Below are positions 11,528 through 18,528 of a stretch of 21,920 nucleotides of DNA, piece by piece (the first letter of the stretch is position 1; each line of letters begins with the position of its first letter). The stretch comes from a virus, in IMG/VR virus record IMGVR_UViG_3300031772_009615, positions 1 to 21,920 of that record; one strand, given 5' to 3'. The notes beneath the pieces were generated by a model that saw only the letters and a program-made list of their open reading frames with translations, searched no databases and had not been told where the DNA came from. A program made the position numbers and the translations under genes.

Positions 11528-11897
11528 TCATGGATTTTCTCAGGTCCGTTATTGAGAGGGCGACTTTGAGTTCGCCGCTATGGGCGAGTTCCTGCCGATC
11601 GCGCCAAAGGTCGGGGCGCCGGTTCTTCAGCCAAAAGATCATGGCGGTTGTATCACCGCCCTTGGCCTTCTCATAAAGGCTCTTCGTTATCTGAAAGTCG
11701 GCCTTCAGCTTTCCCCTTTTTAGGGACTGCAAAAACACTGGTGTTTTTTTCCAGTAATTCAGGGTCCGGGGGCTGATCCCCAGGATGACGGCGATCTCCT
11801 CATCTGTCATTCCAAGGCTGGCGATGATCTCGACCTGCTCAAGATTGATATCTTCCAGCCTCACGCGCTGATTGAGCTTTACCACTTTGACTTTCAT
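11502..11897 (-). CDS. terS: Terminase small subunit (putative)
   Basis: This 131-residue protein carries an N-terminal helix-turn-helix (MTDEEIAVILGISPRTLNYW, about residues 30-49) and a helical middle (DFQITKSLYEKAKGGDTTAM) followed by FWLKNRRPDLWRDR, a pattern very common in phage small terminases. It would recognise the packaging site and hand DNA to the large subunit. It starts at ATG 11897, sharing four bases (ATGA) with the methyltransferase gene, and overlaps the large terminase gene. Confidence 0.82.
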   Translation of the reverse strand: MKVKVVKLNQRVRLEDINLEQVEIIASLGMTDEEIAVILGISPRTLNYWKKTPVFLQSLKRGKLKADFQITKSLYEKAKGGDTTAMIFWLKNRRPDLWRDRQELAHSGELKVALSITDLRKSMSEYKKNGS

Positions 11898-12883
11898 CTT
11901 GCTTCGAGCACCGTTGTCCTAATGTGAGACGCGATGGCCTCCATAAAGCGGGGCATCACAGCGTTGCCGATCCGCGCCCACTGCTCCCGGAAGTTGCCGG
12001 TGATTTTGAATTCATCCGGGAAACTCGAAAAGCGCTTGATTTCAGAAATGTTCAAGCACCGTGGATGTTCCCAGTGGAAGACCCCTCCGCCTCCGCTCGG
12101 GATGACGGTTTTCTGGATAGTCGGGCAGGGACGGTTAGGGTTCAACTTGGACCCATTGAACCAGTAACCTTTGGGATGGTACTTGTCGAAGCTCTCCCCG
12201 TTCCTGCACTTCTTCCAGATCTCAAATCCCAGTTCACCCAGGGTCCTGGAGGCGTCATCGGGGAGCCCCTGGACCGCCTCCCGGGATGGAATGACCTTCC
12301 GCTGAGGCTCGGGGAAAGAGGGCTCTTTTCTCAAGTCATTCCTGACTCCGATCCAGATCAGCCGCTGGCGCGACTGGGGGACTCCGTAATATTTCGTGTT
12401 CATGAGTTTGCACTTCGTCCGGTAGGGAATGCCCTTGAGGGTCTTCATGATCTCGATGAATCGGCCTTTCATCGTCCCTTTTACCAGTCCCGACACGTTT
12501 TCCATGACATAGATCTTGGGTTGGAGCTCGTCGATCAGCCGCGCGAACTCTAGGAAAAGGTCGTTCCTGGGGTCGTTGACGTCTCTCCGGCCGGCCGTCG
12601 AGAAGCCCTGGCAGGGCGGCGAGCCGTCCAGGAGGTCAAGCGTGCCGCGCTTCAGCCGGCAGAACTCGAGGATCTCTTTGCTGGAAACAGTCTTGATGTC
12701 TTTCTTCCAAACAGGGACCCTGGGGAAATTCAGCTTGAAGGTCTCGACCGCGTTGGTGTCGGAGTCGATGGCCAGGAGCTCCCGGAAGCCGGCCCACTTG
12801 TAGCCGAGCGAGCTGCCGCCGCATCCGGCGAAGGTCGAAACAAGCGTCGGTTTTCTCACCATTTGTACCCGCATTTCGGACAT
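11894..12883 (-). CDS. C5-cytosine DNA methyltransferase
   Basis: The ordered motifs of m5C methyltransferases are all present in 329 residues: motif I TFAGCGGSSLG (17-27, SAM binding), motif IV DGSPPCQGFS (86-95, catalytic Cys91), motif VI ENV (128-130), motif VIII QSRQRL (170-175), a target-recognition region with RPCPTIQKT (251-259) and motif X RIGNAVMP (304-311). It transfers a methyl group from SAM to cytosine in a DNA target that cannot be told from this sequence. No restriction enzyme gene is adjacent, so self-protection of phage DNA against host restriction is the likely use. Starts at 12883, 12874 or 12862 are all possible and none has a clear ribosome site; the longest overlaps the ParB-like gene by 28 bases. 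Confidence 0.93.
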   Translation of the reverse strand: MSEMRVQMVRKPTLVSTFAGCGGSSLGYKWAGFRELLAIDSDTNAVETFKLNFPRVPVWKKDIKTVSSKEILEFCRLKRGTLDLLDGSPPCQGFSTAGRRDVNDPRNDLFLEFARLIDELQPKIYVMENVSGLVKGTMKGRFIEIMKTLKGIPYRTKCKLMNTKYYGVPQSRQRLIWIGVRNDLRKEPSFPEPQRKVIPSREAVQGLPDDASRTLGELGFEIWKKCRNGESFDKYHPKGYWFNGSKLNPNRPCPTIQKTVIPSGGGGVFHWEHPRCLNISEIKRFSSFPDEFKITGNFREQWARIGNAVMPRFMEAIASHIRTTVLEAR

Positions 12884-13350
12884 TCGTTCTGGGTCAGGAG
12901 CGACTCATCGAAGTCCTGCTCCTTTGGATCAATGTCGGGCCCGAACCGCTCCATGATCTGCTTGAGGTCGGCTGTATTCCCGAGGTCGACCTTGTAATCA
13001 TTGAGATTAAGCTTTGCCAGGTAGGGCTGGACGAGCTCGGCCAGCTGTTGCTCTTCGTAGAATCCGGCGCGGTCGTTATCGGAGAGAGCAAACTCGATCT
13101 TCTCGGCTTCGATCTTGGGCTGGACAATGGAGACTTCAACCTTTCGCACGCCGAGCTCCTTCAGGGCCCGGATCCGCATATTCCCGCCGAGGGTGATGTA
13201 CTTTCCCTTTTCCTCAAAGACGATCAGAGGCTTATAGACTCCGAGCTTGAGGATCTGGCGTTTGAGGCGCTCGAAGTCGTCCTGCCGGATCCCGCGGGGG
13301 TTCTTCTCCCAGGGAAGCACCTGATCGATGGGAACCTTGACGATTTTCAT
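12856..13350 (-). CDS. ParB-like nuclease-domain protein
   Basis: This 164-residue protein has the ParB/Srx N-terminal fold: IDQVLPWEKNPR (8-19), a repeated helix (FERLKRQILKLGVYKPLIVF) and the signature KYITLGGNMRIRALKELGV (49-67), where GGNMR replaces the more usual GEHR box. The C-terminal end has one CPKC pair (CPKCGYKW), enough for half a zinc site. In phages these proteins are often encoded next to DNA methyltransferases and terminases, as here. Current knowledge places this fold among CTP-binding switches and nucleases, but its phage role is not settled. It overlaps the upstream membrane protein by four bases (ATGA). Confidence 0.82.
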   Translation of the reverse strand: MKIVKVPIDQVLPWEKNPRGIRQDDFERLKRQILKLGVYKPLIVFEEKGKYITLGGNMRIRALKELGVRKVEVSIVQPKIEAEKIEFALSDNDRAGFYEEQQLAELVQPYLAKLNLNDYKVDLGNTADLKQIMERFGPDIDPKEQDFDESLLTQNECPKCGYKW

Positions 13351-14547: not shown

Positions 14548-14853
14548 TTAAATGGCCAAAGATTTCCTCTTGACGCCAGTTGAAAAGTCCGCTATTTCAA
14601 ATGTCGATATATTCGGCTTCTTGATCCAAATCTCTTTTCGGCAGGATGCCGGAAGTTCTATCTGGCCAACGGCTTCCCGGTCCGCTTTTGTTGCCGCGTC
14701 AAGACAAATTTTGATTTTGCGAAGTTCATATTGGCGTACGGCTTCGAGGTCAAACGGACCGTCAGAAAGAAAACTCACGCGATATCCGCAAGCCATGAGG
14801 ATTTCCCGGGCGCGTCGGCGCGCTTTGTAAAACCTATTCTGTGTCGCTGCCAT
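14548..14853 (-). CDS. Small paralogue of the upstream nuclease's N-terminal domain
   Basis: This 101-residue protein is read from ATG 14853, which has AAGGA six bases upstream, and overlaps the preceding gene by 20 bases. Residues about 14-75 align with residues 12-90 of the protein encoded just upstream: GYRVSFLSDGPFDLEAVRQYELRKI against GYYIENINGPSFDIIAAREREWRLI, and both reach KEIW(I/L)(K/R)K. The pattern G-P-x-FD-(I/L)-x-A-(V/A)-R recalls the Asp strand of PD-(D/E)XK resolvases and nucleases, but the E-x-K half is not preserved. It may be a DNA-binding or inactive nuclease-like partner. Function unknown; the homology to the neighbour is visible by eye. Confidence 0.65.
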   Translation of the reverse strand: MAATQNRFYKARRRAREILMACGYRVSFLSDGPFDLEAVRQYELRKIKICLDAATKADREAVGQIELPASCRKEIWIKKPNISTFEIADFSTGVKRKSLAI

Positions 14854-15529
14854 CTTGTTCCTTCTTTGCCAGTTCAATGAAGCGAAGAATCTCCTCGCAA
14901 TGTTTAAACCATTCTCCTCGAATTCTGAATTGAGCAAAATGTTCATGAAGTTTTTTTTCGCTTTCAAAGACGTTATCCGTTTTTATTGAATGAAGCATTT
15001 CAAGGTCGTCGAGGTTATTAGCTTTAAGTTCATAGCATCGTCTTTGGATATCTTTGGTATGGCCGATTTTTATAAGATTCCGTTCTTTGTTGAGGATGAA
15101 ATAAACGTGGCCGGAAAGATCATTTTGCTGCTTCCGGATTATTTGTTTTCGGGATCTAAAAACATTAAGAAGCTGCCCGTTTTGTGTTATCCATTGTCCA
15201 TTTTCCAAGCTGTAAGTTATCCAATGCCGGGAAGTGGCGGAAGAATTTTTCCCGGCACCCTTCCTCAACCAGATTTCCTTGCTGATAAGTTTGATACCAT
15301 GTCTATCAATAAGCACCGGAATTTGTTCCAAACGTCTTACCTTTTCTACTTTTGCGGAAAGTTGATCGGGTTCAACGAAAATGATTAATCGCCATTCTCT
15401 TTCCCTGGCGGCGATAATATCAAAAGATGGGCCGTTTATGTTTTCGATATAATAGCCGATCTGGGACAGGCTATCAATTGCCTTGGCTTTCGCTCTGGCC
15501 ATCCGTTTCTTGATCGCTTCGTCTGCCAT
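14834..15529 (-). CDS. Fusion of nuclease-like domain and T5orf172/MUG113-type GIY-YIG domain
   Basis: This 231-residue protein has an N-terminal domain (about 12-90) shared with the next gene and a C-terminal GIY-YIG domain of the T5orf172/MUG113 type (138-220). The latter shows HVYFILN (GIY equivalent, 141-147), LIKIGHT (YIG equivalent, 152-158), R163-R164, LHEHF (194-198) and the metal-binding Glu206 in RGEWF. Residues 91-137 are a linker of unknown role with an aromatic WITYSLENGQW stretch. GIY-YIG domains cut DNA and are common in mobile nucleases. The ribosome site is weak and the DNA is visibly AT-richer than the flanks, which suggests later acquisition. It sits between the candidate holin and the endolysin. 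Confidence 0.75.
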   Translation of the reverse strand: MADEAIKKRMARAKAKAIDSLSQIGYYIENINGPSFDIIAAREREWRLIIFVEPDQLSAKVEKVRRLEQIPVLIDRHGIKLISKEIWLRKGAGKNSSATSRHWITYSLENGQWITQNGQLLNVFRSRKQIIRKQQNDLSGHVYFILNKERNLIKIGHTKDIQRRCYELKANNLDDLEMLHSIKTDNVFESEKKLHEHFAQFRIRGEWFKHCEEILRFIELAKKEQDGSDTE

Positions 15530-17282: not shown

Positions 17283-17557
17283 AGCTTCTTCTCCTTGAGC
17301 GCCATTTCCTTCAGACACTCGAAGTGATAGTCCTTCTCGTCGACTGTGATCGCCGAAAGGAAATACATCCATTTCCCGCACCAGCTGCAGCACAGAAGAT
17401 CCGCCGCATGGGCGCAGTCCTTGTGGTAATACTCGCACTGGTACTCTGCGGCCTCGTCCTCCGGCACGAAGTCGTCGCACCACGCGCATTTGTGAATAGC
17501 CACGGTATCGTCCGGTCCGTACTGCCGCTTATCGCGGTACTCGTCAGACATGGTCAT
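17279..17557 (-). CDS. Tandem zinc-finger protein, LIM-like spacing
   Basis: This 92-residue protein contains two copies of C-x2-C-x17-H-x2-C: Cys24, Cys27, His45, Cys48 and Cys57, Cys60, His78, Cys81. The copies are 33 residues apart. Each could bind one zinc ion, giving a two-module treble-clef or LIM-like protein; classical LIM domains have only two residues between modules, here there are eight. Such proteins usually bind proteins or nucleic acid. It overlaps the end of the replication initiator by four bases (ATGA), so it is probably translated with it. No phage family is recognised. Confidence 0.68.
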   Translation of the reverse strand: MTMSDEYRDKRQYGPDDTVAIHKCAWCDDFVPEDEAAEYQCEYYHKDCAHAADLLCCSWCGKWMYFLSAITVDEKDYHFECLKEMALKEKKL

Positions 17558-18528
17558 GGTGTCACCCCCTGCAGCCCCTGGGCATATTCTCCGAGTTCTA
17601 TCTTGATGTCCGCCTGGATCTTCTCCCAGGCGTCTTTATTGCCTTTCTTCCGGGCTTCTTCGAGGTCTTGGCTATATTTGTTAAACAGCTCCCGCCGCTT
17701 TTTCTCGATCAGCGCCGTCCGTTTCTTCTCCTCATCGGTCGGCTGGTATTTATTCTCCCCTACCCGGGAGGCCCGGCCTTCCTGGCGCCCGCCGCCATTA
17801 TTCGGACGTCCTGGATCCTGATACGGCTCGTTCAGGTAATCTTCGAAATGCCCCGGCCGGAAAAGGGTTGAAGGCCTAATGTATTGACTCATCTTGGGAT
17901 CCCCCCGCCACTGAGACGTCTTTGTGTCGATGACGTGCTTGAAATCTTCGAAAAGGTGGCCTTCGGCGATCCTGCCGTTGATGAGCCCGACTGCCTCCTT
18001 GTTCGTACAAGACCGCTTCTGCCCTGTGACCTGGTTGAAGTAGTCGATGATTTTTTTGATCAGTTCGGAGGAGGCGGAAGAGGGGGATATAATTACTTTA
18101 CTTTGCTTAATAATTACTTTACTTAAAGCAGAGTTTTTCCCACCTTCGTCTTGAGTAGCTCTGGAATAGGTCTGGAGTAACTCCGGAGGAGGCATGGAAA
18201 TTGTTGATTTTGCTTCCTTTTCCGGATTGAGGTTTGGCTGCTTCTCTTGGAAGTCTGGGATATGAAGGAAAAAATCGCCTTTTACCTGATAACGGATAAT
18301 GAGATGGTTCTGTTCGAGGTCCTCGAGATACTCCTCGACCTTTTTAATGGACTTCTTGAGCCTTGTGAAGATCTGGCCATTGATGACTTCAGCATCCCCG
18401 GAGAAACAACCGTTGACATCAACATGAGGAAGCAACCATGTATAAAGAAGCCGCGCTCCGTCTGTACTTAGACTCGCTAATTTTTTGCTCTGCGAAATTG
18501 ATTTTAAAACAAATCTGCCTGCAGGCAT
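17554..18528 (-). CDS. Replication initiator, winged helix plus Phg_2220_C-like domain
   Basis: This 324-residue protein starts at ATG 18528 behind AAGGAGA. Residues 1-105 look like a DnaD/O-type winged helix (LYTWLLPHVDVNGCFSGDAE, LKKSIKKVEEYLEDLEQNHL, ending FFLHIPDFQEKQ). Residues 106-155 are a linker with a tandem SKVII-KQ-SKVII. Residues 156-233 match the conserved phage C-terminal domain (IIDYFNQVTGQKRSC, EDFKHVIDTKTSQWRGDPKMSQYIRPSTLF). The remaining 90 residues are highly charged. Such proteins bind the phage origin and load the host helicase. The DNA coding for the linker carries four tandem 11-bp repeats and an AT-rich stretch, so the origin may lie inside this gene as in lambda O. 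Confidence 0.8.
   Translation of the reverse strand: MPAGRFVLKSISQSKKLASLSTDGARLLYTWLLPHVDVNGCFSGDAEVINGQIFTRLKKSIKKVEEYLEDLEQNHLIIRYQVKGDFFLHIPDFQEKQPNLNPEKEAKSTISMPPPELLQTYSRATQDEGGKNSALSKVIIKQSKVIISPSSASSELIKKIIDYFNQVTGQKRSCTNKEAVGLINGRIAEGHLFEDFKHVIDTKTSQWRGDPKMSQYIRPSTLFRPGHFEDYLNEPYQDPGRPNNGGGRQEGRASRVGENKYQPTDEEKKRTALIEKKRRELFNKYSQDLEEARKKGNKDAWEKIQADIKIELGEYAQGLQGVTP
18089..18124 (-). repeat. AT-rich stretch with two 15-bp direct repeats (possible unwinding element)
   Basis: AAGTAAAGTAATTAT on the minus strand occurs twice with a 21-base period (18110-18124 and 18089-18103), in a stretch that is almost wholly A/T among GC-rich neighbours. The period equals seven codons, so the repeat is also a protein repeat (SKVII). 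It lies just after the 11-bp repeats, the order seen at the lambda origin. Confidence 0.65.
18149..18192 (-). repeat. Four contiguous 11-bp repeats, candidate iterons
   Basis: On the minus strand the four units are CCTCCTCCGGA, GTTACTCCAGA, CCTATTCCAGA and GCTACTCAAGA. The common core is about TACTCCAGA, with one or two changes per unit. An 11-base period is not a multiple of three, so protein repetition does not explain it. One unit equals about one DNA helical turn, so bound proteins would line up on one face. They lie in the initiator gene, upstream of the AT-rich stretch. Confidence 0.65.

Follow-up and report, generated by a model that had tools for sequence, protein, structure and literature searches.

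A probable origin of replication within the initiator gene of a phage

Initiator gene and internal repeats

The stretch of viral DNA analysed here (the window) comprises 21,920 nucleotides of IMG/VR record IMGVR_UViG_3300031772_009615 (positions 1 to 21,920). On its minus strand it encodes a putative replication initiator, and the part of that gene specifying the linker between two protein domains contains an array of 11-bp repeats (iterons) and an AT-rich element that together form a candidate replication origin. The features concerned are as follows.

17554..18528, minus strand: replication initiator open reading frame (ORF), 324 amino acids (aa), with winged helix, linker and Phg_2220_C domain; PF09524 and PHROG_428 matches
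18214..18528, minus strand: N-terminal winged-helix domain, aa 1-105, presumed to bind the iterons; AlphaFold2 model and structure matches
17830..18051, minus strand: Phg_2220_C domain, aa 160-233, presumed to contact a helicase loader or helicase; Pfam match, domain swapped for other C-termini in close relatives
18149..18192, minus strand: four contiguous 11-bp iterons; sequence, codon-shuffle test, array kept in relatives
18192-18182, minus strand: iteron unit 1, CCTCCTCCGGA
18181-18171, minus strand: iteron unit 2, GTTACTCCAGA
18170-18160, minus strand: iteron unit 3, CCTATTCCAGA
18159-18149, minus strand: iteron unit 4, GCTACTCAAGA
18125..18146, minus strand: two degenerate units, AAGGTGGGAAA and AACTCTGCTTT, in the same 11-bp phase (counted back from AAGTAAAG), bridging the array and the AT-rich element
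18089..18124, minus strand: AT-rich element with two exact 15-bp direct repeats, AAGTAAAGTAATTAT (18124-18110 and 18103-18089), presumed DNA-unwinding element; repeats, AT content and stability

The initiator matches PF09524 (Phg_2220_C; E = 1.8e-23, 82.8 bits against a gathering cut-off of 27) and PHROG_428, a family of replication initiation proteins (E = 8e-35). An AlphaFold2 model based on a 48-sequence alignment contains a confident winged helix (mean predicted local distance difference test score 84.9), in which the predicted recognition helix spans aa 61-73. Structure matches of this domain include viral replisome organizers, winged helices of the Fur/PerR/ArsR type and, weakly, the plasmid RepA initiator domain 4pt7 (Foldseek); none of the matches in the PDB is decisive, and a sequence search of the PDB gave no meaningful match. 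A Pfam scan of the initiator found no match to a lambda O family, and a lambdoid O protein ranks only 28th among the structural matches of the winged helix (E = 1.5e-3). The iterons of lambda, at ~18-20 bp, are longer than the 11-bp units of the window.

The array lies ~340 bp into the initiator coding sequence. Its core, TACTCCAGA, is exact in unit 2 only, with one mismatch in units 3 and 4 and two in unit 1. An earlier note on this DNA had described four contiguous units, lying between the winged helix and the C-terminal domain and followed at once by AT-rich 15-bp repeats. The four units are confirmed on the minus strand, their location is borne out by the domain match and the structural model, and the 15-bp repeats are present; the repeats do not follow immediately, however, but after 24 bp, in which the two degenerate units sit. 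A palindrome-like dyad symmetry within the unit (ACTCCnGAGT) was considered and rejected, complementary pairs being no commoner than column composition predicts.

The AT-rich part is the highest-AT stretch of the window at lengths of 40, 50 and 60 bp, and positions 18087-18137 are its least stable 51 bp (nearest-neighbour sum -53.7; mean -74.2, standard deviation 4.8). The best 44-bp stretch of the initiator gene has 23 of 33 matches at lag 11, a value reached at that lag by 3 of 2000 synonymous-codon shuffles. The 11-bp periodicity of this gene alone is moderate, and the signal is judged strong because of the comparison with relatives.

Conservation of the array in related phages

Searches of viral contigs, genome contigs and named phages yielded 65 distinct related genes (57 after removal of redundancy), and the layout proved common to dozens of related phages. 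Genome contigs contributed three metagenome-assembled genome contigs in a second scan and none in the first; a plasmid search using the winged helix of a relative gave no match. In the 75 bp past the winged helix, pooled identity is 0.419, 0.354 and 0.339 at lags of 11, 22 and 33, against ~0.25 at other lags, and there is no peak within the winged-helix part. Across the 57 non-redundant genes, lag-11 identity after the winged helix is 0.425, compared with 0.316 in synonymous-codon shuffles (z 17); lag 22 also exceeds its shuffled controls (z 10), and the downstream stretch with 5/6-bp repeats does so at lags of 5 (z 14) and 10 (z 13.6). Taken singly, 40 of the 65 genes reach p<0.05 in the codon-shuffle test and 33 reach p<0.01; several of those that fail carry the array outside the tested stretch.

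The last unit (AACTCnnnnnn) directly adjoins AAGTAAAG in the majority of relatives. A conserved Glu codon is separated from the AAGT element by 67 bp in 22 genes, 78 bp in 1 and 89 bp in 4, the last length being that of the window and of the relatives L002, L003 and L030. These distances represent whole 11-bp steps and fall in all three reading frames. The motif ACTCCAGA is likewise read in all three frames, often inside one gene (frames 2, 1 and 0 in L018 and L022), and AGTAAAG is read in two. Because a single DNA element is translated in every frame, it is the DNA on which selection acts. Entire units seem to come and go irrespective of frame, which is plausibly restored further down, in the 5/6-bp repeats.

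A pattern defined on DNA only (TCCAGA-N5-TCCRGA-N5-35-AAGTAAAG) gave nine matches over viral contigs. Seven lie in the linkers of winged-helix initiators whose N-termini diverge widely; the remaining two represent one chance sequence. Among close relatives, with N-termini 61-74% identical, L002 retains Phg_2220_C, and no C-terminal domain was recognised in L003, L004, L006 and L009; the array persists in them despite the differing C-termini. Arrays differ between genes (ACTCCAGA, ACTCACGA, ACTCCGGC and AACGGA). The linkers of L049, L050 and L051 contain a ACTCCAGAGT unit followed, in the same gene and phase, by GACGGAGT-type units, as though one iteron type were giving way to another.

Comparison with known systems

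Internal origins were thought in the earlier note to be little described for initiators of the Phg_2220_C type, a view that two phages contradict. ORF11 of Lactococcus phage r1t (Zuniga et al. 2002, as cited in PMC8965321) is a Phg_2220_C initiator like that of the window, and its linker carries GGAACCGAAAT-type 11-bp units (25 of 33 lag-11 matches, reached by 0 of 300 codon shuffles) and then AT-rich repeats of 5/6 bp, in the window's layout. The N-terminus of ORF11 is weakly similar to the window family (hhalign probability 54, 43 columns); its iteron sequence is unrelated to that of the window, and a gene for a DnaC-like loader lies directly downstream, whereas none was recognised in the window. 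For Francisella phage KIRK, a lambda-like origin with four iterons in an AT-rich region has been predicted within the Phg_2220_C gene fhv_0043 (PMC7924643), which shares with the window both the domain and the in-gene location, KIRK's origin being a prediction only. Six 11-bp GCAACAGCAAC units are also found in another Phg_2220_C initiator, that of Marinitoga phage MPV1 (L092:1836-1901), whose N-terminal domain looks different; with the exception of MPV1, other Phg_2220_C phages have 22-24-bp or other periods.

The Rep protein (ORF16) of Lactococcus phage Tuc2009 has a winged helix related to the window family (hhalign E = 5e-07, 93 columns) and a C-terminal Rep_Org_C domain in place of Phg_2220_C. 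Its gene contains four contiguous CAACCAAnnnn-type 11-bp units and then GATAG/GTTAG (5/6-bp) repeats, the same layout as in the window with a different iteron sequence. The rep gene is annotated "contains origin of replication," and both the in-gene origin and the binding of Rep have been published, as has an in-gene origin in TP901-1 (PMC8965321). ORF13 of TP901-1, the gene in which that origin is said to lie, has no 11-bp period, and periods of 22-24 bp occur in phiPYB5, KC5a and one staphylococcal phage; the 11-bp rule is therefore not universal.

Origins within initiator genes are known in addition for lambda gene O and SPP1 gene 38 (oriL), and that of 80alpha has been inferred to lie within ORF20 (PMC6316719, PMC5499656); the initiator families of all three differ from that of the window. 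In the RepA_N plasmid pSK41 the N-terminal domain binds four boxes central in rep, and the origin encodes the linker (PMC5703833); this replicon is a plasmid rather than a phage, and its initiator is of a different family.

Origin model, alternatives and significance

The array is conserved as DNA and keeps a fixed phase to an AT-rich element of low stability. Together with the domains of the encoded protein, these features are best read as a theta-type origin (18192-18089) nested in the linker-coding part of the phage's own initiator gene, an assignment that we consider highly likely. The same arrangement, iterons followed by an unwinding element, had been proposed in the earlier note, and a signal that exceeds codon shuffles in many relatives independently of frame argues for it. 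The N-terminal winged helix would bind the 11-bp iterons, each covering about one helical turn, so that several monomers would be aligned along the same face of the helix. The protein-iteron complex would then melt the adjoining AT-rich repeats, and, if SPP1 and lambda are a guide, the C-terminal domain may recruit a helicase or its loader; these steps would account for origin activity in the window phage.

Several results weigh against this assignment. The codon-shuffle check suggested in the earlier note, strong in the 57 relatives, is only moderate for the window gene, where 18 of 400 shuffles reach the observed value if any lag from 7 to 30 is allowed. GC skew, suggested in the same place, has no clear switch across the 22-kb fragment. 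Some of the relatives were retrieved by a pattern that itself includes the array, and that subset is biased; most came from protein searches. Retention of the repeats in close relatives holds for the five named above but not for L035, L036 and L039, whose Pro/Lys-rich linkers have no visible 11-bp array (N-terminus ~61% identical to the window's) and in which the origin may lie elsewhere or be missing. The expectation that the repeats would change in step with the winged helix failed as well: covariation between the two over 37 genes gave a Mantel r of 0.06 (permutation mean 0.00, maximum 0.27), and the top-ranked columns were not concentrated in the recognition helix.

The array could instead be an autoregulatory operator, at which the initiator or a repressor binds inside the gene and blocks its transcription, the AT-rich stretch being incidental. 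Iteron arrays are often used in autoregulation, and no second array of the core occurs elsewhere in the window, which confines the protein's sites to its own gene. The position of the array well inside the coding sequence, however, does not place it at a promoter. The 5/6-bp repeats next to it are held in fixed phase and have the lowest stability in the window, and the matching layout of Tuc2009 is an origin. An operator is accordingly regarded as very unlikely.

Slightly less likely still is a cis-acting site of another kind, for instance one for packaging or a recombination hot spot, that lies in the initiator gene by chance. Other cis sites are found within phage genes, but this array stays in the linkers of winged-helix initiators across widely divergent phages, the DNA pattern retrieves it there, and in two well-studied phages sharing the layout that place holds an origin or a replisome organizer. 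The least probable alternative is a protein-level effect, in which a Pro/Thr/Ser-rich linker and then a Lys/Val-Ser repeat (SKVKxSKVK) would yield repeated codons: the linker peptides are alike (PTPExLQSxSRVT, SKVKESKVK) and AGTAAAG is in frame 0 in 52/70 cases, but neither 11 nor 5 is a multiple of 3, codon-shuffled genes fall short of the observed lag-11 and lag-5 values, and ACTCCAGA occurs in every frame, so that this explanation is largely refuted, as the earlier note had anticipated in holding that protein repeats cannot produce the period.

The in-gene origin assignment can be extended to a single origin grammar shared across a very wide class of initiators with unrelated C-termini, with one iteron per helical turn, gain and loss of iterons in whole 11-bp steps whatever the reading frame, and a fixed phase to the 5/6-bp block. 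The block would then be more than a melting zone, acting as a repeated single-strand recognition element with a role comparable to that of the bacterial DnaA-trio. This extension is tentative and, on present evidence, rather doubtful.

Two other regions of the window are of interest. A low-GC patch (14548-15529; GC 0.41-0.46), in which a T5orf172/GIY-YIG-like ORF (14834-15529) overlaps a second ORF, is possibly a recent insertion. Between the structural and replication genes, a C5-cytosine methylase gene adjoins a gene for a ParB_N-domain protein (11894-13350).

The window very probably represents a further, well-supported case of a predicted iteron origin within a gene, a type already known. 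In the literature searched, no statement was found of a rule by which, across a wide set of phages, 11-bp steps keep a fixed phase to 5/6-bp repeats. Such a rule, which looks to the linker just past the winged helix for 11-bp units phased with 5/6-bp repeats, could place origins in many uncultivated phages on the basis of sequence only. The coding sequence is here bent by a DNA signal, the length of the array changing across reading frames, and the natural variants of the array make the recognition of iterons by one winged-helix family directly testable.
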